The notes below the pieces were generated by a model. That model did not search any database. It was not told the origin of the DNA and was given only the letters and a program-made list of their open reading frames with translations. A program made the position numbers and the translations under genes. Positions 11,815 to 20,250 of a stretch of DNA of 33,608 bases are shown here, piece after piece (the first letter of the stretch is position 1; each line of letters begins with the position of its first letter). This DNA comes from a virus, in the IMG/VR virus record IMGVR_UViG_3300025133_000380, positions 1 to 33,608 of that record; one strand, 5' to 3'.

Positions 11815-12192
11815 CTACTGTTCCTCCGTTTCTGATACAGTAACTTTTCTATAATACACAACCACTTCTTTAAGCTCACCTATATACCTCTTTAATTCCT
11901 GCATATTATACGCCATGAGTTCATAATCTGGAACAGACATAGCAAAAAACACCACCTGACCATGCTCTTTGTCAACTCTGCCTAAAAATTCTTCAAGGTT
12001 TTTATCACTCACCACGTACCAATAAGGCTCTTTTAAGTCTATTTCCCTTGGCATAACAGGCTGAACTATAGTTCTCTCTATAGGTTTAGTGATAACTTCG
12101 ACTTGTTGTTTACTTGGGATTAGACTGCAACTGCAGACCATCATCAAGATCGTCGATGTTACGACTAAGTTCTTCAATGCTGTTAAATACAT
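11815..12192 (-). CDS. Outer-membrane-type lipoprotein, candidate o-spanin
   Basis: I chose ATG 12192 (125 residues), which has GGA about 8 bases upstream and gives a clean signal peptide; ATG 12204 and TTG 12222 are alternatives. The N-terminus has one Lys, a hydrophobic core and a VCSC lipobox (Cys at about 22), predicting lipidation. The mature part has a Pro/Ile-rich stretch followed by PYWYVVSDKNLEEFLGRV and a helical C-terminus. The first 83 nt overlap the end of the i-spanin gene in another frame, as in many Rz/Rz1 pairs, and the lysozyme follows. Longer than typical o-spanins, so a different phage lipoprotein is possible. Confidence 0.6.
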   Translation of the reverse strand: MYLTALKNLVVTSTILMMVCSCSLIPSKQQVEVITKPIERTIVQPVMPREIDLKEPYWYVVSDKNLEEFLGRVDKEHGQVVFFAMSVPDYELMAYNMQELKRYIGELKEVVVYYRKVTVSETEEQ

Positions 12193-12517
12193 TTTTAGTT
12201 CCATTATTAACTTTAGGTTCAAGTAATCCAGGTTTTGCTGCTGCTGTTTTACTTAGATTATGTCTTTTGAAAATATCTAGATATCGAGTCATTTCTAATT
12301 CTATTTCTTGATTCTTGGATTGGAGGGTTAATAGCCCTTCGGTTTGTTTTTTAAAGTCAACCTGTAGTTGCTCTATTGCTGCTTTCTGTTCTTGGTTTCT
12401 TATTTCAAATGCTTGGTTCAAGGCAGATAGACTAGCGTTTTCGTTCCATAAGAAATATAAAGCTACTCCAAGAACTAAAACAACTCCTGCCAAAACTTTG
12501 CTTAAAACATCACCCAT
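12110..12517 (-). CDS. i-spanin-like (Rz-like) protein
   Basis: I chose ATG 12517 (135 residues), which overlaps the preceding stop as TAATG with AGGAG 13 bases upstream. The product has one N-terminal membrane segment (VLAGVVLVLGVALYFLW) and then a long charged coiled coil (about residues 28-95, rich in E/K/Q/L). That is the topology of an inner-membrane spanin reaching into the periplasm. Its 3' end overlaps the lipoprotein gene by 83 nt. With the lipoprotein it would fuse the two membranes at lysis. The family is recognised from topology and context, as spanins are poorly conserved. Confidence 0.68.
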   Translation of the reverse strand: MGDVLSKVLAGVVLVLGVALYFLWNENASLSALNQAFEIRNQEQKAAIEQLQVDFKKQTEGLLTLQSKNQEIELEMTRYLDIFKRHNLSKTAAAKPGLLEPKVNNGTKNVFNSIEELSRNIDDLDDGLQLQSNPK

Positions 12518-12693
12518 TACGAAAGCATTGCTCCTAAAATTTGTGAGCCAATAATTAAAACGTATAGTCCCCATATCATCTGTTCCATTCGAACAAATCT
12601 TTTAGAACCAGACTCTAGTCTGTTTTCTATTTGTTTAAATCTAAGTGCACAAATTTCTTCATGCTGGTCCAATTTTGTTTTTCTAGTCGCCAT
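12517..12693 (-). CDS. 58-residue tail-anchored membrane protein
   Basis: ATG at 12693-12691 opens a 58-codon frame that ends with TAA at 12519-12517. It begins MATRKTKLDQHEEICALRFK and ends with a single hydrophobic segment (MIWGLYVLIIGSQILGAML). The start lies 11 nt inside the end of the cyclase gene, and the stop overlaps the i-spanin ATG (TAATG), so it fills the gap exactly. The topology (charged coiled N-terminus, C-terminal membrane anchor) resembles XhlA-like or holin-accessory phage proteins. No Shine-Dalgarno sequence is seen, so translation probably depends on coupling. A lysis role is inferred from position. Confidence 0.65.
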   Translation of the reverse strand: MATRKTKLDQHEEICALRFKQIENRLESGSKRFVRMEQMIWGLYVLIIGSQILGAMLS

Positions 12694-14452
12694 TTTTAAT
12701 TGTATATATTTGTAAAGGTTTCTCTTTTCCCTTAACTTTTATTGGTTCCAGTAATTTTAACTCAAAATTGCAACTTTTTTTAGTAGTATCGCCAATTAGT
12801 ATGTCTTCCCCCACTTCTTTGGTTGCAGATTCTAGTCTTGCTGCAGTGTTTACAGCATCGCCAATTGCCGTATAATCAAACCGTGTTTCACTTCCCATGT
12901 TCCCAATAACTGCGTATCCTGTGTTAACTCCGACGCCTATCGCTACATCTATGTCGGCTTCTTTTATGTTTTTCTGTATCTCTCTTGCTGCTGCAACTGC
13001 TTTATTTTCATGTCTTTCAAGGTCTAATGGAGCATTAAAGATTGCCATCATTGCGTCGCCAATATACTTATCCACCATACCGCCATATTTTTGTACCGCT
13101 TTTTGTTGTATGGTTAAGGCTTCATTCATAATTTTAGTTACTTCTTCTGGTTCAAGTGTTTCTGACATGGCTGTAAATCCTCTTACGTCTGTGAATAAAA
13201 AAGTACAAAATCTTTTTTCTCCGCCTAATTTTAAAAGTTCGGGGTTATCTTGCAGTTTTTTAACCTGAGCAGGATCTAGATAGTGTTCAAACTGTTTCTT
13301 AATCTGTTGTCTAAGTTTGTATTGTTCTCTAAATCTAATGTAGAAAACCACAGCCCCCACTATAAACTGTGCAAGCAGTGCCCAACTAACATCTATTAAA
13401 AGCCCGTTCTTTATTAAATAAAACCCTCCTAGAGCCGTAGAGAAGGATATAAGACCGCCTAGTACAACCCCCCACGTTATACCTAAAAAGGTCAATACAG
13501 ACCATATAAGAGCGACTGTAGCCCCATATATAATAATTTCTAAGGAAATAGCCCAGTCTGGTATTCGAGGACTGTTTTGTATTAAAATAGATTCGGATAA
13601 TGCTGCTTGAATTTTATGTGGTTCGAGCAGACCAACAGGAGTTGCAATTTGAGGCATAACACCTTCTGCTGTTACCCCAACGAACACAAACCTACCTTCA
13701 ATGTCTAGTTCTTTTGTATATAACTCACGAAGATTGAATTCAGGGGTATCGACCCAACTAATCCATTTTCTTCCTAAAGAGTCTGTAGGAACTGGAGGTA
13801 ATCCCCTTACCCGTATCTCCTCTACACCGTTTTGGTTTGTTTTAATCACATATGTATCTGCGCCTGCTAACACTTTTAGTACCTCAGCACCGTAAGCAGA
13901 AACCCAACCATCAGGTGTTCTTAACAACAAAGGCATTCTTCTAACTAACTGGTCTACTTCTGTAGGAGCAACTGCTATGCCCTCAAAAGCACTTTCACGG
14001 AACAAAGGAATGTTCTGTATAACACCTTTTGCTTTAAAACCACCACGGTCTTCACCCAATATAACTGTGCCTGTTGTTACAGGGTATGTCCCATTTTCAT
14101 TTTCAAAAGTTGCTAAAATACTTGGGGCAGAAGCCAGACTTTCAGCAAACGCTAAATCTCCGCCAAAACGATCTGGTTGTGGAAAAGCAATAACCCAGCC
14201 CACACCCAAAGCACCTTTTTCAATAAGTTTGTTTTGTATTTGTGCTAATCTTTTTCTGGGGAAGGGGTATCCGTTTTCTTTTTGAACATCTTTTTCGTCT
14301 ATTGATAATATTGAAAAATAATTAGAAACTTCTTTTTCTTCAACGAGTGCGTCAAAAATTCTTAGTTTAAGTATTTCTAGAGGAACCCACTGCTGAGTAA
14401 GAGGAACTCCTAATAAAACTAAAAAAGCTAATAGTTGTAAAAATTTAGTCAC
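12683..14452 (-). CDS. CHASE2-domain class III adenylyl cyclase
   Basis: An intact 589-residue membrane cyclase, taking GTG 14452 as start (TTG 14461 is possible; neither has a clear ribosome site, and both overlap the curlin stop). An N-terminal membrane anchor (about 3-21) is followed by a periplasmic CHASE2 sensor (about 25-295), three membrane segments (about 303-322, 325-347, 352-373), a linker helix, and the cytoplasmic class III catalytic domain (about 410-560). Metal ligands Asp422 (FTDVRGFT) and Asp466 (IGDA) are present. So are base-selecting Lys462 and Thr528 and transition-state Asn535 and Arg539 (VNTAARLE). Lys plus Thr predicts ATP as substrate and subtype IIIb. Dimerisation is required in this family. 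It is the last gene of the curli-like block. Confidence 0.93.
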   Translation of the reverse strand: MTKFLQLLAFLVLLGVPLTQQWVPLEILKLRIFDALVEEKEVSNYFSILSIDEKDVQKENGYPFPRKRLAQIQNKLIEKGALGVGWVIAFPQPDRFGGDLAFAESLASAPSILATFENENGTYPVTTGTVILGEDRGGFKAKGVIQNIPLFRESAFEGIAVAPTEVDQLVRRMPLLLRTPDGWVSAYGAEVLKVLAGADTYVIKTNQNGVEEIRVRGLPPVPTDSLGRKWISWVDTPEFNLRELYTKELDIEGRFVFVGVTAEGVMPQIATPVGLLEPHKIQAALSESILIQNSPRIPDWAISLEIIIYGATVALIWSVLTFLGITWGVVLGGLISFSTALGGFYLIKNGLLIDVSWALLAQFIVGAVVFYIRFREQYKLRQQIKKQFEHYLDPAQVKKLQDNPELLKLGGEKRFCTFLFTDVRGFTAMSETLEPEEVTKIMNEALTIQQKAVQKYGGMVDKYIGDAMMAIFNAPLDLERHENKAVAAAREIQKNIKEADIDVAIGVGVNTGYAVIGNMGSETRFDYTAIGDAVNTAARLESATKEVGEDILIGDTTKKSCNFELKLLEPIKVKGKEKPLQIYTIKNGD

Positions 14453-15170
14453 TTTGATCAATTGTTACTGTTTTAGTACAATTGGTTACACAATTATAAC
14501 TAACAGTAATACTTTTATTTGTTGTACCTGATTGACTGGCGGTTACATCATAGTCATCTGTGTAAAAATTTAGTCTCATATAGTGATCTCCACTTCCAGT
14601 CTGGGTAATCGTAGCATCGTTATTATCTGCTGAGTTGCTTGCATATATTTTAGCGTAATGTTCTCCAGAACCTGACTGAGTAATACTAAACTCAGAACTA
14701 TCCCCAAAAGCTCTAATTTCGCCTTCTTTGTCATCTCCAGTTTGAGTTATAGTGTATACATTGTTATCACCTTGCATATAGATTTCAGCATCATTATCAT
14801 TGCCGTCTTGAACTATGTCCATATCATTGCCGTCATCGTCTGCATCTATATAGCCGAAGTTATCATTGCCGTCTTGGTCTATTTTGTATTCATTACCTGT
14901 GTGGTTTGCTACTTGACTGTATGCTCTAGCCGTGTTGTTAGTACCTTCCTGATCTATATCAATTTCGGCATTACTACAGTTATGAGCAGGATATGCACCT
15001 TCAGACAACCCACACCAAACTCTAGCAGTATTACTCGTCCCTATCTGATCAATATGTATAAGGGAAGAACTGCCTTTAGTTCTCACCTCCACAGAATTAT
15101 CCCCTGCTTGTACAAAAGGACAACTGTGTAAAAATAAAATACTAATCAGACTGATTGATAATGATTTCAT
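14445..15170 (-). CDS. Secreted curlin-repeat protein (CsgA/CsgB-like), second copy
   Basis: I chose ATG 15170 (241 residues): GGAGG precedes it by about 8 bases, while the upstream in-frame GTG codons sit inside that ribosome site. A signal peptide (SLISILFLHSCPFVQA) is followed by eight or nine imperfect curlin repeats of the form I-x-Q-x-G-x-x-N-x-A, for example HIDQIGTSNTARV, DIDQEGTNNTARA, TITQTGDD and SITQSGSG. The chain is very acidic (many D/N). Cys pairs flank the repeats (near WCG...NCS and NCVTNC). It ends in TIDQSD, close to the INQSD end of the FecR protein. Curlin repeats form stacked beta-hairpins of extracellular amyloid. The gene overlaps the FecR gene by 29 nt. Whether it is subunit or nucleator is unknown. 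Confidence 0.85.
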   Translation of the reverse strand: MKSLSISLISILFLHSCPFVQAGDNSVEVRTKGSSSLIHIDQIGTSNTARVWCGLSEGAYPAHNCSNAEIDIDQEGTNNTARAYSQVANHTGNEYKIDQDGNDNFGYIDADDDGNDMDIVQDGNDNDAEIYMQGDNNVYTITQTGDDKEGEIRAFGDSSEFSITQSGSGEHYAKIYASNSADNNDATITQTGSGDHYMRLNFYTDDYDVTASQSGTTNKSITVSYNCVTNCTKTVTIDQSD

Positions 15171-16245
15171 TTTCACCACCTCCGTTTAATGTTACGTTTA
15201 TAAATCTTCCTGCAGACAACATCTGGATATTATACCCCGCAGTTTTATCCAACTCTAAGTCTATTGTGTTCTCAACTTGTCTTACTAATGTAAAAAACTC
15301 ACCTTCTACAAAAGTATATACCTGAGCGTTTTGGTCAAATCTAGGAATAATACCCTCTATTTTTACTCCGTCTAGTTCTCCTGAGGCACCCTCATCTCTT
15401 CCTCCAGCTGAAACCTCTTCTATCATTTCTAGTAAGTCTTGTAGAAAATCAACAGCCAACAAATCTATGTCTAGTCTTGTAATTTCTTCTTGTAGTTCGT
15501 CCTTAGACAAATCACCATCGTCATCCAAATCATTTTCTTCTAAAAAATCCGCATCTAAAACATTACTAGAGCTTTGGCTTTGTTCGTCCAGTGCTTGTTC
15601 TACTTCTTCGGGAGGGTTAACAATTAGAAGATTATCGATAAAGTTTAAAGACATGTTCAATAATTGAACAGGTTTTGTGGGAGGACTTTCACTAACACTG
15701 ACCATTGTTGCTTGGTATGGCTCATTGAGAACCTCTATACCAGCCATTGTTTCTACAGTTATTTCACCAGAAGAAGTTCCATCAGGTTTAGGAAGAAGTA
15801 TCACTAACGACCTTCCTATTTCATCTACTGTAGTTGTGAAGTCGGTGCCTCTAATTGCAATTGTTGCGCTAGGGGTTCTTATAGAAATGTTTTCTTTATC
15901 TATTCTTCCCAATGCGCCAGTAATAAATCTGGCTGTTCCGCTTGCCATCTGGAGTGCCATTTTGCTTTTACTTGGATCAGGGTCATAAATATACTCATCG
16001 ATAACAATCTTAGAATGTTCAGTGAGCCGTATAACAGAAGAATCAAGAAACTCAATACCGATACGACCATCACCAGTGCGGACATCATCATAGCTAAAGA
16101 TATCCAAATCAGTTGTTGCCAGTAATTTATCTGACTGATCCGCTCGTAAAATTTCTCCACTACCTCTCAACTCGGAAATTGTGCCTATTTCAGAATAAGC
16201 ATTAATATGTATGACCCCAAATAAAACTAACAGCCACTTGCGCAT
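15142..16245 (-). CDS. Periplasmic FecR-domain protein with EF-hand
   Basis: A 367-residue exported protein (signal peptide about 1-17). Residues about 50-140 form a FecR domain: DDVRTGDGRIGIEFLDSS, RLTEHSKI, a MASGTARF segment and TPSATIAIRGTDF are characteristic. Residues 239-250 (DLDDDGDLSKDE) are a canonical 12-residue EF-hand loop with acidic ligands at 1, 3, 5 and Glu at 12, so calcium binding is expected. A beta-rich C-terminus ends in IIINQSD, like the curlin-2 terminus. No sigma factor or TonB receptor gene is nearby, so this is not a classical iron-uptake FecR. FecR-domain proteins are often encoded beside CHASE2 cyclases, which suggests it may feed the cyclase sensor. It overlaps curlin-1 by 19 nt. 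Confidence 0.85.
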   Translation of the reverse strand: MRKWLLVLFGVIHINAYSEIGTISELRGSGEILRADQSDKLLATTDLDIFSYDDVRTGDGRIGIEFLDSSVIRLTEHSKIVIDEYIYDPDPSKSKMALQMASGTARFITGALGRIDKENISIRTPSATIAIRGTDFTTTVDEIGRSLVILLPKPDGTSSGEITVETMAGIEVLNEPYQATMVSVSESPPTKPVQLLNMSLNFIDNLLIVNPPEEVEQALDEQSQSSSNVLDADFLEENDLDDDGDLSKDELQEEITRLDIDLLAVDFLQDLLEMIEEVSAGGRDEGASGELDGVKIEGIIPRFDQNAQVYTFVEGEFFTLVRQVENTIDLELDKTAGYNIQMLSAGRFINVTLNGGGENEIIINQSD

Positions 16246-16913
16246 TGGTCTATGTCTATAGTCCCGTTGCTTGTGGTTGCTGTTATAACCACCACACCCG
16301 AAGTGCTACCAGTACCGTTGGTCTGGTCTATGTCTATATTATTTGTGTTTCCTGTAATATCTCCTGTGATTGAGTGATCTGCATTTCCCGTCTGGGTGGT
16401 GTCTATATCGTTTGAGTCGCCATCTACATCCCAGTTATTAATACAACCAACTACTTCACAAGTAGCATTCAAATCATTTGATGTTCCTGCTATGATTATG
16501 TCTTGATTACCTGCGGTGGCTGTTGCTGCAGCCCCTTGGGTAAAAGTTACTGTGTTTGAATCTCCTGTTGCAGCGTAGTCAAAATCAGTGTTAGCAACGT
16601 CTCCTGTTGCTCCCAGTGCTAAAGTCGTCGTATTACTATCACCAGTTGTGCTTGCTGTAAACGAGGTACTATTACCCTGAGCCACTGAAGCTGCCAGTGT
16701 GTTGCTATCCCCCACTTGATCTATATCAACAGTCATTGATGTACCAGTAAAAGTAGCTCTAGCTTGTGATGTACCGACCACATTACTATTACCGATCTGG
16801 TCAATATTCATTGTTAATCCTGTACCAGACTGCGTTATGTATATATCGTTATTGGCTGCAAAAATCGCAGGGGTCACTAAAACCAATAATAATAGTTTCC
16901 AAATATGTTTCAT
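16227..16913 (-). CDS. Secreted curlin-like protein, first copy
   Basis: A 228-residue protein with AGGAGG five bases before ATG 16913. The signal peptide (KLLLLVLVTPAIFA) is cleaved after about residue 19. The mature chain is G/S/T/N/D-rich with repeated I-x-Q-x-G and G-x-SN elements: YITQSGTG, NIDQIGNSN, DIDQVGDSN and NIDIDQTNG. Spacing between repeats is looser than in curlin-2, and several repeats lack the Gln. Two Cys pairs occur (CEVVGC near the middle, CASGC at the extreme C-terminus). It lies 13 bases after csgG and overlaps the FecR start by 19 nt. I infer a secreted amyloid-like or beta-solenoid substrate of the adjacent CsgG pore; an unrelated repeat-rich adhesin is possible. Confidence 0.75.
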   Translation of the reverse strand: MKHIWKLLLLVLVTPAIFAANNDIYITQSGTGLTMNIDQIGNSNVVGTSQARATFTGTSMTVDIDQVGDSNTLAASVAQGNSTSFTASTTGDSNTTTLALGATGDVANTDFDYAATGDSNTVTFTQGAAATATAGNQDIIIAGTSNDLNATCEVVGCINNWDVDGDSNDIDTTQTGNADHSITGDITGNTNNIDIDQTNGTGSTSGVVVITATTSNGTIDIDQCASGC

Positions 16914-16926
16914 TCTTCCTCCTGGC

Positions 16927-17754
16927 TTAGTCTTTCTCGAACTGCTCGTAGTTAAAATCCCACAATTCTTTTTCTAAGCCTTTCATAATTAAAGTGTAGA
17001 CCGCCTCTTCAATCGCTGATCTAGTGGCATAACCAACAGCTTCATTCTGACTGTATCCTGTCTCTACTTCAACGAGTTCCGTGCCTAATTCAACGAAACG
17101 AAACACATCTCGACTGACACCCGCACTCAATATTGTTTTACTCACCATACAGTTTATCATAACTTCCCCTGTTTGCACAAGAACTGCTCTTAAAGAAACT
17201 GTAATCTCATCTTTGCGCCATTGGTTGCTTGAACCGATTCCTAAGTATCTAGCTCCGTTTCCACCTGTTTCCACATTGGTGTCATACTGAACTATTCCTC
17301 CTTCTATAAGGATACCTGCGAAGAGTAACGGTTTTAGCGTATTCCCGTTTTCTCCGTTATATGTTTTTCTAGTGTTTTTTATAAGTTGTCTTTCTTTAGT
17401 TAATGCGTCTAAGTTTTTTCTTTCTACTACCGCAAACCAATTTCCTTTTCCCGCACTTCTTAAAGCGTCTATAAGATAGTTATCTGCTCCTTGTGTGACC
17501 GCTGTACTAAATAAAGCCATCTTTTGAGAACTTTTCCTTTGTCCTGTTAAATCTTGAAAACTGTAGACAGCAACAACTGCTTTTTGCATAGGTGGGGGAA
17601 GCTTTTCTAGTTTTGTTTGTGTTGGTCTAACTGTTTCTGGTTCTTCACTACACTCTAACCAACTAATACAACCTGTGTGACCAACAGGCGCAAGACTAGC
17701 ACACCCCTGTAGTATTGAAAATACTAAAACTAAATACCACAATCTTCTGAACAT
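16927..17754 (-). CDS. csgG: CsgG, curli secretion pore lipoprotein
   Basis: A 275-residue lipoprotein: signal peptide with LQGC lipobox (Cys18). The body matches CsgG, the nonameric outer-membrane channel that exports curlin subunits. VAVYSFQDLTGQ, FSTAVTQGADNYLIDALRS, VVERKNLDALTKERQLI, GARYLGIGSS, SKTILS and DVFRFVE all align with E. coli CsgG from memory. In the constriction loop the Phe (E. coli Phe56) is kept as Phe82. The Tyr51 and Asn55 positions are not conserved and the loop appears one residue longer, so pore selectivity may differ. The membrane hairpins are full length, so no truncation is apparent. The gene overlaps csgF by 25 nt. Confidence 0.93.
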   Translation of the reverse strand: MFRRLWYLVLVFSILQGCASLAPVGHTGCISWLECSEEPETVRPTQTKLEKLPPPMQKAVVAVYSFQDLTGQRKSSQKMALFSTAVTQGADNYLIDALRSAGKGNWFAVVERKNLDALTKERQLIKNTRKTYNGENGNTLKPLLFAGILIEGGIVQYDTNVETGGNGARYLGIGSSNQWRKDEITVSLRAVLVQTGEVMINCMVSKTILSAGVSRDVFRFVELGTELVEVETGYSQNEAVGYATRSAIEEAVYTLIMKGLEKELWDFNYEQFEKD

Positions 17755-18263
17755 ATTCCAAATATACCTATGGGTATAACAATAGTTGTGATATTACCGT
17801 CTGCGTCTATTACTGTTAGTGTTATGTTTATACCATCGTTTACAAAAGTTATTACACTACCTTCTAATTCTATGCTTCCTCCTGTTCCGCCACCCTCGGA
17901 GTTAAACAGGCTTTCTGCGATGTCTCTAGACAATTGACTATAGATCCTGCTTTCTAAGTTTCTTAAAAACTTGGCGAGTGTTGTGTTTTCTGCTTCTCTT
18001 TCTGCTTCTTTTAAAGCGTCTTCAACTTTTTGTGCTTCTTCGTCTCTTCTTGTTTTTTCTTGTTCATCAATTGTTAGGTAATGCGAAGAAGTACCTACAC
18101 CACTAAAACTGGGGCTTTTAAACTCATGTACTATTTCATCTGCAAAAACTTTATTGTGTATAACAACAACCAACACCACAATCAATATGGATGAAAAATA
18201 AAGCAACGCTATTGGTTCTCTATGTCTTTTTATTTCTTGTGGGTTTGTTTTCTTTATTTTCAT
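17730..18263 (-). CDS. csgF: CsgF-like curli assembly factor
   Basis: A 177-residue exported protein. A long basic N-terminus and a hydrophobic core end at VFA, with predicted cleavage after about residue 41. The mature N-terminus HEFKSPSFSG corresponds to the CsgF segment (FRNPNFGG in E. coli) that threads into the CsgG barrel. A charged helix (about 65-95), LESRIYSQLSRDIAESLF and a beta-rich tail (VNDGINITLTVIDADGNITT) match the rest of CsgF. It is larger than E. coli CsgF by a charged helical insertion and a C-terminal Cys pair (CSEDC). In the family it couples the CsgG pore to surface nucleation. The start overlaps the upstream membrane gene by 44 nt. Confidence 0.85.
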   Translation of the reverse strand: MKIKKTNPQEIKRHREPIALLYFSSILIVVLVVVIHNKVFADEIVHEFKSPSFSGVGTSSHYLTIDEQEKTRRDEEAQKVEDALKEAEREAENTTLAKFLRNLESRIYSQLSRDIAESLFNSEGGGTGGSIELEGSVITFVNDGINITLTVIDADGNITTIVIPIGIFGICSEDCGI

Positions 18264-18489
18264 CTTCTTTTAATTGTAAAACAGTATTCACTTTTTCTTT
18301 TAATCTTATCATATCTTGATCTAAAAGACGTAATTGGTCAGTTAATCTTATAATGGTGTTTTTCATTTCCTCTACGGCTGGGTCTATTACTTTCGTAATG
18401 GTTTGCCAAACAAAATAAACAAAGTATCCCAGACCGACAACCATAACCACAGGAAAACCGAAGTCCGACACCAATTGGACTATGTCCAC
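18220..18489 (-). CDS. Small membrane protein with coiled coil (paralogue 2)
   Basis: An 89-residue protein from a GTG start with AGGAG 6 bases upstream; the GTG overlaps the preceding stop (TAGTG). One membrane segment (FPVVMVVGLGYFVYFVW) leads to a coiled coil (about 35-75) and a K/N-rich tail. The N-terminus pattern MD-I/V-...-L-...-G-F/L-PV-...-YF is shared with the gene directly before it, so the two look like diverged tandem duplicates. Topology resembles small phage holin-like or BhlA-like proteins. It overlaps csgF by 44 nt and so may be co-translated with it. Function unknown. Confidence 0.6.
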   Translation of the reverse strand: MDIVQLVSDFGFPVVMVVGLGYFVYFVWQTITKVIDPAVEEMKNTIIRLTDQLRLLDQDMIRLKEKVNTVLQLKEDENKENKPTRNKKT

Positions 18490-18782
18490 TAATCTCTCCT
18501 AGCGTCTATCTTCCCATCTTCTACAAAATTTTCTGCTCTTGCGATCCTGTCTAAATCAGGGGGTATACCTAAAGCCGAAGAAACGCTTGTGTCTATTCTA
18601 ATAATATCATTATTCATAATAGAGGCTCTAGTGATGAGCATTTTAGAAATTCCTTGGATAGTTTTAATCTCTGAAACAAGATTTCCCATCAGTTGTTTCA
18701 TGATGAGAAAAATAAAATATGCCATTATAAGACCTCCCGCCACAGGAAGTCCTAGTTCAGCTATTAAAGCAAAAACATCCAC
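18489..18782 (-). CDS. Small membrane protein with helical tail (paralogue 1)
   Basis: A 97-residue protein from a GTG start that overlaps the preceding stop (TAGTG), with AAGGAAG upstream. One membrane segment (LPVAGGLIMAYFIFLIM) is followed by a helical region with I/M/S heptad-like spacing and a charged C-terminus. It resembles the following gene at the N-terminus and in topology. Placement next to oxygenase, membrane and lysis genes suggests a holin-like or envelope role. No named family recognised. Confidence 0.6.
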   Translation of the reverse strand: MDVFALIAELGLPVAGGLIMAYFIFLIMKQLMGNLVSEIKTIQGISKMLITRASIMNNDIIRIDTSVSSALGIPPDLDRIARAENFVEDGKIDARRD

Positions 18783-19177
18783 TATTCACTTCCTTCGCCT
18801 TTAAAACTTTTAGAAGAACCAGAAGTGCCAGCGTATAAACCAAACCATGCTGCTCCTGCTCCAACAATAATACTTATAAGACCTGATTGCTCAAGACTTG
18901 GCTCGGGAAGATCCATAAACCACATTGTTGAATAGTAGAGTAAGAATATATAAACACTTAAGAAAACTCTAGGAAATATCCTCCATGAATCCACTGCTTG
19001 AGCTAAATGAATCCATCTTTGATGGGGGTTTACATTTGTTGCGTCTTCTAGTGTTCTGACCTGATCTTTAAGGTCTGAGATTTCTCGGACCATGTCCATA
19101 AACTTGTTGAGATCCATCTCAACTTCGTTTCTGTCCATGTCTCCACCAAATCGACTTGATGGATCATTGTTGCTCAT
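18782..19177 (-). CDS. Two-span membrane protein, holin-like candidate
   Basis: A 131-residue protein starting at ATG 19177, overlapping the upstream stop by four bases (ATGA). The first ~65 residues are charged with a coiled segment (KFMDMVREISDLKDQVRTLE). Two membrane helices follow (about 70-87, VFLSVYIFLLYYSTMWF, and about 101-115, ISIIVGAGAAWFGLY), then a short Ser/Gly/Lys tail. I have an impression of similar proteins in marine podovirus genomes, but cannot name a family. It could be the holin needed by the signal-less lysozyme, though several small membrane proteins here compete for that role. Confidence 0.6.
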   Translation of the reverse strand: MSNNDPSSRFGGDMDRNEVEMDLNKFMDMVREISDLKDQVRTLEDATNVNPHQRWIHLAQAVDSWRIFPRVFLSVYIFLLYYSTMWFMDLPEPSLEQSGLISIIVGAGAAWFGLYAGTSGSSKSFKGEGSE

Positions 19178-19366: not shown

Positions 19367-19540
19367 TTATTTACCTGCCTTGTCTTTTGCCTTACCGATA
19401 TTAAATGCGCATAGATCAATTAGCTTGTAAAGTTTACCAATCCATACATCATCTTTAGGGGTGGGTGTGACGGCAGCGATAATGCTACTCACACTAATAA
19501 TTGCCATAATTATTGCAATCGTGTTTGCAAATATTTCCAT
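19367..19540 (-). CDS. 57-residue single-span membrane protein
   Basis: ATG 19540 overlaps the oxygenase stop (TAATG), with GAGGT nearby, giving 57 residues. One membrane segment (NTIAIIMAIISVSSIIAAV) is followed by a PTPKDDVW turn and a basic helical tail. The PTPKDD-x-W motif after a helix recurs in small phage membrane proteins in my recollection. It lies in the cluster of small membrane genes before the curli block, so holin or antiholin is a reasonable guess. Confidence 0.6.
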   Translation of the reverse strand: MEIFANTIAIIMAIISVSSIIAAVTPTPKDDVWIGKLYKLIDLCAFNIGKAKDKAGK

Positions 19541-20250
19541 TATTGTACCTCTTCTATTTCTGTTGGTTGTTCTTGAATATCCCAGCAATTAAGATTAGAG
19601 GCGACAGTTCTTCTTTCGCCTTTTCCCTTAAAAGGATACACCATATGTTGCAACCAAGAGGGAAAAACCAACAACTTTCCTACTTCTGGTTGCATAACAA
19701 AAGATTGCGGAGGTCGCAGTCTCTCTGTGTTCATCAGTTCGTTTCTGCCGTAATTAAAAGCTATATACCCATCACAATCACCAGACGAATTGTATAAAGA
19801 GTAGTTACCATCGCCAGCAGTTGGTTGGTCTAGTATCTGTTGCGGAACCTTAGTCCAGCTAGTTGTCGATATACCCATAATGGTTTTAGTGCCGTGATCG
19901 TGTATAGGGTTATAGTCACCTTCGTAACTGTGCACTGACCAAGTTTCATCAACCGCTACGGCTTTGGGTGCTTTTAACATTGTTCCAATATTCTGAGAGA
20001 AGAAATTAATATAATCTGCCCCCAAGCCACATATAAAATTCGTGTATTCTTTTACTCTTGGATCATCATTATCCAGAAGTAATTGTTCACCTTGTGCTAT
20101 TTGCCCAACTAAAGTGTCAGCTAATGATTTTTTATTTTTATCCTCAACATATTCATCCAGGTAATCATTTAACTCCTCAACCATACTCTCTGGCATTTGT
20201 GTCTCCATGACATAGACACTAGGCATGTTGTGCACCGTTACTTCAGCCAT
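19540..20250 (-). CDS. Putative 2OG-Fe(II) oxygenase
   Basis: A 236-residue protein with the pattern of phage 2-oxoglutarate/Fe(II)-dependent oxygenases of the double-stranded beta-helix fold. NPIHDHG (His117-Asp118-His119) gives the first metal ligands. FPSWLQHMVYPF (His202) gives the distal His, and GERRTVASNLN supplies the Arg (213/214) expected to bind 2OG. WSVHSY and the hydrophobic strands around them fit the core. Enzymes of this type hydroxylate protein, nucleic-acid or small-molecule substrates; nothing here shows which. It sits between fibre and membrane genes, abutting a 106-residue structural gene by two bases. Related proteins are frequent in marine phages. Confidence 0.75.
   Translation of the reverse strand: MAEVTVHNMPSVYVMETQMPESMVEELNDYLDEYVEDKNKKSLADTLVGQIAQGEQLLLDNDDPRVKEYTNFICGLGADYINFFSQNIGTMLKAPKAVAVDETWSVHSYEGDYNPIHDHGTKTIMGISTTSWTKVPQQILDQPTAGDGNYSLYNSSGDCDGYIAFNYGRNELMNTERLRPPQSFVMQPEVGKLLVFPSWLQHMVYPFKGKGERRTVASNLNCWDIQEQPTEIEEVQ

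Follow-up and report, generated by a model that had tools for sequence, protein, structure and literature searches.

A putative curli-type secretion operon with FecR and CHASE2 cyclase genes in an HTVC023P-type podovirus

Why would a phage carry, among its late genes, the outer-membrane pore of curli secretion together with curlin-like proteins, a FecR-domain protein and a membrane-bound adenylyl cyclase? The question is raised by the IMG/VR virus record IMGVR_UViG_3300025133_000380, a 33.6-kb viral record of a marine tailed phage (33,608 nucleotides, the window), in which all genes of interest lie on the minus strand. In a first-pass annotation, six consecutive genes were described as a module for curli export, with two candidate amyloid proteins and a membrane-bound cyclase, placed between virion and lysis genes. 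Such a phage curli module with FecR and cyclase was already known from work published in 2020-2022, and the present finding is a rediscovery. A 2020 study described CsgF and CsgG in pelagimyophages (PMC7029224). HTVC023P-type phages with CsgF, CsgG, CsgA/B, FecR, CsgA/B and cyclase followed in 2022, with viral curli transcripts, an ocean-wide distribution (at ocean stations, about 0.1% of the viral proteins assembled) and hypotheses of aggregation ('sibling capture') and superinfection defence (PMC9599517). For phage Melnitz, a role in lysis was proposed in the same year (PMC9004378).

The reading preferred here, to which we give a probability of about 0.5, is a late-expressed export-and-sensing operon that places curlin on the surface of the infected cell.

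An eight-gene unit within a probable late operon

All six open reading frames are present and each matched its family, curlin 1 weakly (Table 1); profile HMMs supported the CsgG and CsgF assignments, and the predicted curli export module with two candidate substrates and a cyclase was borne out by these matches. The genes are read in the order CsgF, CsgG, curlin 1, FecR, curlin 2, cyclase. Genes and order stood as first described, but the conserved unit is larger than six genes. Two transmembrane (TM) proteins of about 90 amino acids, smA and smB (18220-18782), precede csgF, and the order smA, smB, csgF, csgG, curlin 1, fecR, curlin 2, cyclase was found in 16/16 loci holding the whole block. 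The gene order recurs in many viral contigs and in two isolated phage types, the Pelagibacter phage HTVC008M and the Methylophilales phage Melnitz, with an identical eight-gene order (PMC7029224, PMC9004378). The latter two differ in being T4-like myophages, their proteins are ~24-48% identical to those of the window, and their module has replication genes on one side and structural genes on the other, no adjoining gene being annotated for lysis.

In the window, the block was found beside virion and lysis genes, as proposed: tail spike, spanins, lysozyme and structural proteins flank it. Adjacent genes from 19177 to 11370 overlap or nearly touch, through the spanins and lysozyme, and for this reason they very likely form one late transcript. 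The pelagiphage type VIII secretion system (T8SS) module of PMC9599517, described from HTVC023P-type podoviruses and T4-like pelagimyophages, comes from the same phage group and has the same genes in the same order (small protein(s), CsgF, CsgG, CsgA/B, FecR, CsgA/B, cyclase), whereas in the window a T4-type lysozyme and spanins adjoin the module. One or two leading genes were named histidine kinases in that study. Judged by position, smA and smB would be these genes; the kinase models of Pfam, NCBIfam and PHROGs gave no match to them. Their TM segment and coiled tail were judged by eye. PHROGs families exist for CsgF, CsgG, FecR and the cyclase, all annotated as function unknown.

The major capsid protein is 69% identical to that of Pelagibacter phage HTVC023P, 68% to that of 023Pt_psg01 and 74% to that of phage DSL-LC04, and on these identities the contig is assigned to the HTVC023P-type podoviruses. 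The stabilization protein is 31-42% identical to that of HTVC023P-type members, and megablast of the first 25 kb against the phage collection gave no nucleotide match; by sequence comparison the phage is a diverged member of the group. The G+C content is 41%, against 36% in the examined part of HTVC023P. The evidence base for the phage is one contig, and the host is presumably of Pelagibacter type. Chimerism or contamination was rejected, since two further contigs (L003, L004) carry the block together with the genes around it, most of the proteins being 99-100% identical (spike 85%), and third-position G+C (GC3) of the block resembles that of the remaining genes.

The ratio of nonsynonymous to synonymous substitution rates (NG86 dN/dS) against the relative L005 was 0.01-0.13 in all eight genes. 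Both curlins were among the more constrained (0.04-0.06) and the cyclase was the least (0.13). Synonymous sites are near saturation in this comparison, which makes the values rough, and the comparison with L010 was mostly uncomputable or unreliable. Purifying selection seems to act on all eight genes, and the constraint on the curlins speaks against a relic or a pore acting alone. The module could nevertheless be passive cargo, a bacterial operon acquired, kept by chance and little expressed: a search of the phage collection gave no match to it in HTVC023P, HTVC027P or 023Pt_psg01, and it is absent from the relative G724. Against this stand the low dN/dS of all eight genes, the same order in two phage families and the reported viral curli transcripts (PMC9599517), and we regard passive carriage as very improbable, the least probable of the explanations considered.

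Table 1. Features of the block and its neighbours in the window
Feature	Coordinates	Strand	Remarks
131-amino-acid membrane protein	18782..19177	-	adjoins block; side differs among relatives
smA, ~97 amino acids	18489..18782	-	one N-terminal TM segment and coiled tail ending GKIDARRD; phrog_18771; conserved upstream of csgF
smB, ~89 amino acids, relative of smA	18220..18489	-	one TM segment and coiled tail; no kinase domain; weak PHROG holin match, E 0.003
CsgF	17730..18263	-	PF10614, E 7.5e-13, above cut-off
CsgG, outer-membrane lipoprotein pore	16927..17754	-	PF03783, E 1.7e-55; lipobox LQGC
Curlin 1 (curlin-like substrate 1)	16227..16913	-	signal peptide by eye; QxGxxN repeats; all-beta repeat model; C-terminal DIDQCASGC
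FecR-domain protein, periplasmic or exported	15142..16245	-	FecR (Pfam), E 2.7e-12
Curlin 2 (substrate 2)	14445..15179	-	Curlin_rpt, E 1.7e-16; five Curlin_rpt stretches
CHASE2 - TM - class III adenylyl cyclase	12683..14461	-	CHASE2, E 1e-24; Guanylate_cyc, E 6.5e-21 (Pfam)
58-amino-acid single-TM protein, possible lysis accessory	12517..12693	-	weak sub-cut-off match to gene transfer agent (GTA) head-formation family
Inner-membrane spanin (Rz-like)	12110..12574	-	
Outer-membrane spanin (Rz1-like lipoprotein)	11815..12222	-	
T4-type phage lysozyme	11370..11879	-	

Among the neighbours, the 131-amino-acid protein was compared with a holin annotated in DSL-LC04 and with a similar protein of G724; homology was rejected, as it shows no detectable similarity to either. 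Between the fibre and small membrane genes (19540-20250) the window encodes a 2OG-Fe(II) oxygenase; such oxygenases are annotated in several relatives. The endolysin type varies among relatives, with a T4-type lysozyme in the window and in G725 and a peptidase M15 annotated in HTVC023P and DSL-LC04 (loci compared: L233:13255-13749 and L027/L029).

The export pore and its putative substrates

The lipobox Cys of CsgG was invariant in 8/8 aligned sequences, and the protein matched the solved E. coli channel with an E value of 1.5e-44. The constriction of the E. coli channel is formed by Tyr66, Asn70 and Phe71 (PMC7304575); in the window the Phe is kept, and Ser and Leu stand at the positions of Tyr66 and Asn70. 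In CsgF, an N-terminal stretch VxxFxxPxFxG is conserved among phages, and its position matches the channel-lining region of E. coli CsgF; the CsgF profile gave no meaningful match against the PDB. A CsgG 40% identical to that of the window was also seen in a 1.5-kb record, OR851715.1, that bears the name Salmonella phage S.Kent 1-2-1 and is possibly bacterial DNA.

Curlin 1 matched the Pfam curlin repeat below the cut-off (E 0.013). Across 13 aligned sequences its QxGxxN repeats are conserved, and AlphaFold2 confidently predicts an all-beta chain of repeats (pLDDT 82.7); among PDB structures the model gave weak beta-helix matches only, with the E. coli CsgA fibril at rank 21 and not significant. 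Both curlins keep signal peptides and repeats. The window shares the CsgG and CsgF families and the curlin repeats with E. coli csgBAC/csgDEFG. It differs in that no CsgE was found, no CsgC or CsgD appeared among the Pfam family matches, the two curlins are larger, the constriction Tyr and Asn are replaced, and FecR and a CHASE2 cyclase are added. By gene content, the block appears to have the CsgG, CsgF and curlin substrates of type VIII (curli) secretion, and to be without its CsgE.

From what is known of these families, the phage system would secrete the curlins and form amyloid. Late in infection, CsgG would serve as the outer-membrane pore, lined and capped by CsgF, and both curlins would cross CsgG-CsgF and build a fibre on the infected cell surface. 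The fibre may benefit the phage by aggregating cells, by holding progeny near new hosts or by shielding against other phages. The curlin repeats might instead decorate virions or tie them to released cell debris. The position in the late operon beside tail spike and structural genes would fit such a virion or debris adhesin, but signal peptides and a dedicated exporter point to outer-membrane transport, and the curlins had no match among the structural-protein families of PHROGs. We consider this use of the curlins improbable.

The main rival to a surface fibre is a pore for lysis, in which CsgG, alone or together with CsgF, would set the time of lysis or make it easier, an idea put forward for Melnitz, and the curlins and FecR would act as plugs or cargo that close the pore until late. 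In its favour, spanin and lysozyme genes overlap the block in this phage, two small TM proteins precede it, of which one matches a holin family weakly, and no CsgE gate was found. CsgG, however, is an outer-membrane pore, while holins work in the inner membrane, and the curlins are strongly conserved. The neighbours also vary: in the T4-like phages baseplate and tape-measure genes come next, with no lysis gene annotated adjoining, and in L017 and L019 the module is placed differently relative to the stabilization gene. Two relatives have 89% capsid identity. In G725 the module is present in a version in which one curlin was detected. G724, which does have virion and endolysin-side genes, lacks CsgG; its spike gene is followed by three short genes and then the stabilization gene. 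The block is therefore an optional insert and not a core lysis device, and a role as lysis-timing pore appears unlikely, though less so than the other alternatives.

The FecR protein, the cyclase and their bacterial counterparts

The FecR protein has its FecR beta domain joined by a long linker, acidic and disordered, to beta strands at the C-terminus, which end in xIxIxQ. Its structural model reached a mean pLDDT of 54, a low to moderate quality, and the PupR signalling domain was the nearest fold (E 1.6e-3). The model also matched 5ix9, a 76-amino-acid 'cell surface anchoring domain' (63 columns, root-mean-square deviation 1.2, target TM-score 0.74, E 0.011); on this match, a link between FecR domains and outer-membrane retention domains is possible. 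The FecR domain stands alone behind a signal peptide, and the classical FecR anti-sigma layout (single TM segment, cytoplasmic N-terminus, cognate sigma factor) was not found. The protein had first been described as FecR-EF-hand. The FecR domain was upheld; the EF-hand motif, DLDDDGDLSKDEL in the linker, is intact only in the window copy; the two closest homologs have it in a changed form and the remaining ones lack it, and an EF-hand sensor was rejected. The terminal xIxIxQ is conserved in 17/18 homologs and shared with curlin 2. A canonical curlin repeat at the FecR C-terminus was rejected as well: a matrix built from 834 bacterial repeats scored it at about the level of shuffled sequence, and Pfam saw none. 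The protein might itself belong to the pore or fibre, replacing CsgE or capping the fibre; it would ride the channel by means of its xIxIxQ strand and report channel occupancy to the CHASE2 cyclase. This we hold to be a long shot.

In the preferred reading, the periplasmic FecR protein and the membrane CHASE2 cyclase would form a ligand-receptor pair reporting the state of the envelope or of export. The pairing is suggested by their co-inheritance and by precedents (PMC5192318, PMC13001267). In Burkholderia, FecR beside a CHASE2 histidine kinase makes up a biofilm-regulating operon (PMC5192318); as in the window, a FecR-domain envelope protein is encoded beside a CHASE2 receptor, whereas there the receptor output is a histidine kinase and curli genes are lacking. 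CHASE2 cyclases of S. meliloti respond to a signal via an outer-membrane barrel (PMC13001267).

A bacterial operon of the same make-up was found in a bacterial genome scan. Two contigs of Caulobacteraceae metagenome-assembled genomes (MAGs), L112 and L114, carry csgF-csgG-curlin-curlin-fecR-CHASE2/adenylyl cyclase among chromosomal genes (flanked in L112 by a glycosyltransferase, prolyl oligopeptidase and TonB receptor plug, and in L114 by a metallophosphoesterase, amidohydrolase and acyl-CoA dehydrogenase). The families are those of the window in nearly the same order, FecR is 40% identical and the cyclase scored 668 bits with the phage HMM; in contrast to the window, both curlins come before fecR, smA/smB are lacking and the flanks are bacterial. 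In PMC9599517 the kinase and cyclase were said to lie outside bacterial T8SS operons. L112 and L114 run counter to this, as the cyclase and FecR at least can belong to such operons. The arrangement is rare, with full-length FecR in 1/385 genomes of the class sample and 2/199 of the family sample, and in the remaining FecR homologs of Alphaproteobacteria the matches cover the FecR domain only. Short contigs in MAGs of Flavobacteria, Saprospirales, Synechococcus and Pelagibacter (L110, L111, L113, L115, L116, L118) carry the phage-type module with smA/smB and are probably mis-binned phage contigs. The locus is proposed to be an operon for type VIII (curli-type) secretion that brings along an envelope sensor. 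An alphaproteobacterial chromosome and phages would at some point have exchanged this operon together with its FecR and cyclase genes, and it is carried here within the late lysis cassette of an HTVC023P-type podovirus.

The cyclase of the window has Asp425 and Asp469, Lys465, Thr531, Asn538 and Arg542, which we take to be the metal-binding Asp pair, the Lys/Thr base contacts and the Asn/Arg transition-state residues of class III cyclases. It appears to have the residue set of an active class III adenylyl cyclase. In the Melnitz cyclase (L002:12691-14742) Ser takes the place of the catalytic Asn and the C-terminus is extended; this enzyme is perhaps inactive. In L018 and L022 the cyclase is diverged (36-37% identity) although CsgG is 59-61% identical, and extra small genes lie between curlin 2 and cyclase (L022:4322-5501, including one 2OG-Fe(II) oxygenase-like by eye; L018:6085-6691); replacement of the cyclase is possible there.

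Production of cyclic AMP (cAMP) by this enzyme could be the main job of the block, the curli parts serving as envelope sensor and the signal altering host expression or lysis time. All catalytic residues are present and the cyclase travels with the module. In the family of a Pelagibacter MAG, taken as the likely host family, the cNMP_binding domain was found in 9/147 genomes, 138/147 being without it, and a class III cyclase above the cut-off in 2/147, the same two that carry the csgG module and the only ones with CsgG. The domain was not found in HTVC008M, Melnitz, the window, G724 or G725; the census covers cNMP_binding and leaves room for receptors of other families. These counts weaken the earlier proposal of lysis timing through cAMP. 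With the cyclase also the least constrained of the eight genes, diverged in L018/L022 and altered in Melnitz, rewiring of the host through a second messenger is a poor candidate for the main function.

Weighing a proposed surface fibre and sensor

Several observations weigh against a surface curli operon with a sensor. CsgE (PF10627) was absent in seven records including two bacteria, with the E. coli positive control detected; alphaproteobacterial curli systems are likewise without CsgE (PMC3521004), and CsgE is therefore not a defining part of the alphaproteobacterial type. No clumping was seen by transmission electron microscopy and cytometry of Melnitz infections (PMC9004378). The output of the cyclase seems to lack an obvious reader in the likely host family, where cNMP_binding is mostly missing. 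In the CsgG tree, L112 and L114 group with phage sequences at moderate support, so that transfer may have gone in either direction; both contigs belong to MAGs of a single sampling series.

With cAMP receptors nearly missing from the likely host family, it becomes a more pressing question what purpose the cyclase serves. If the FecR protein were a channel-riding part, the phage would sense its own amyloid export before lysis. A bacterial FecR and CHASE2 cyclase operon, if found in culturable relatives, could allow the sensor half to be studied without pelagiphages.

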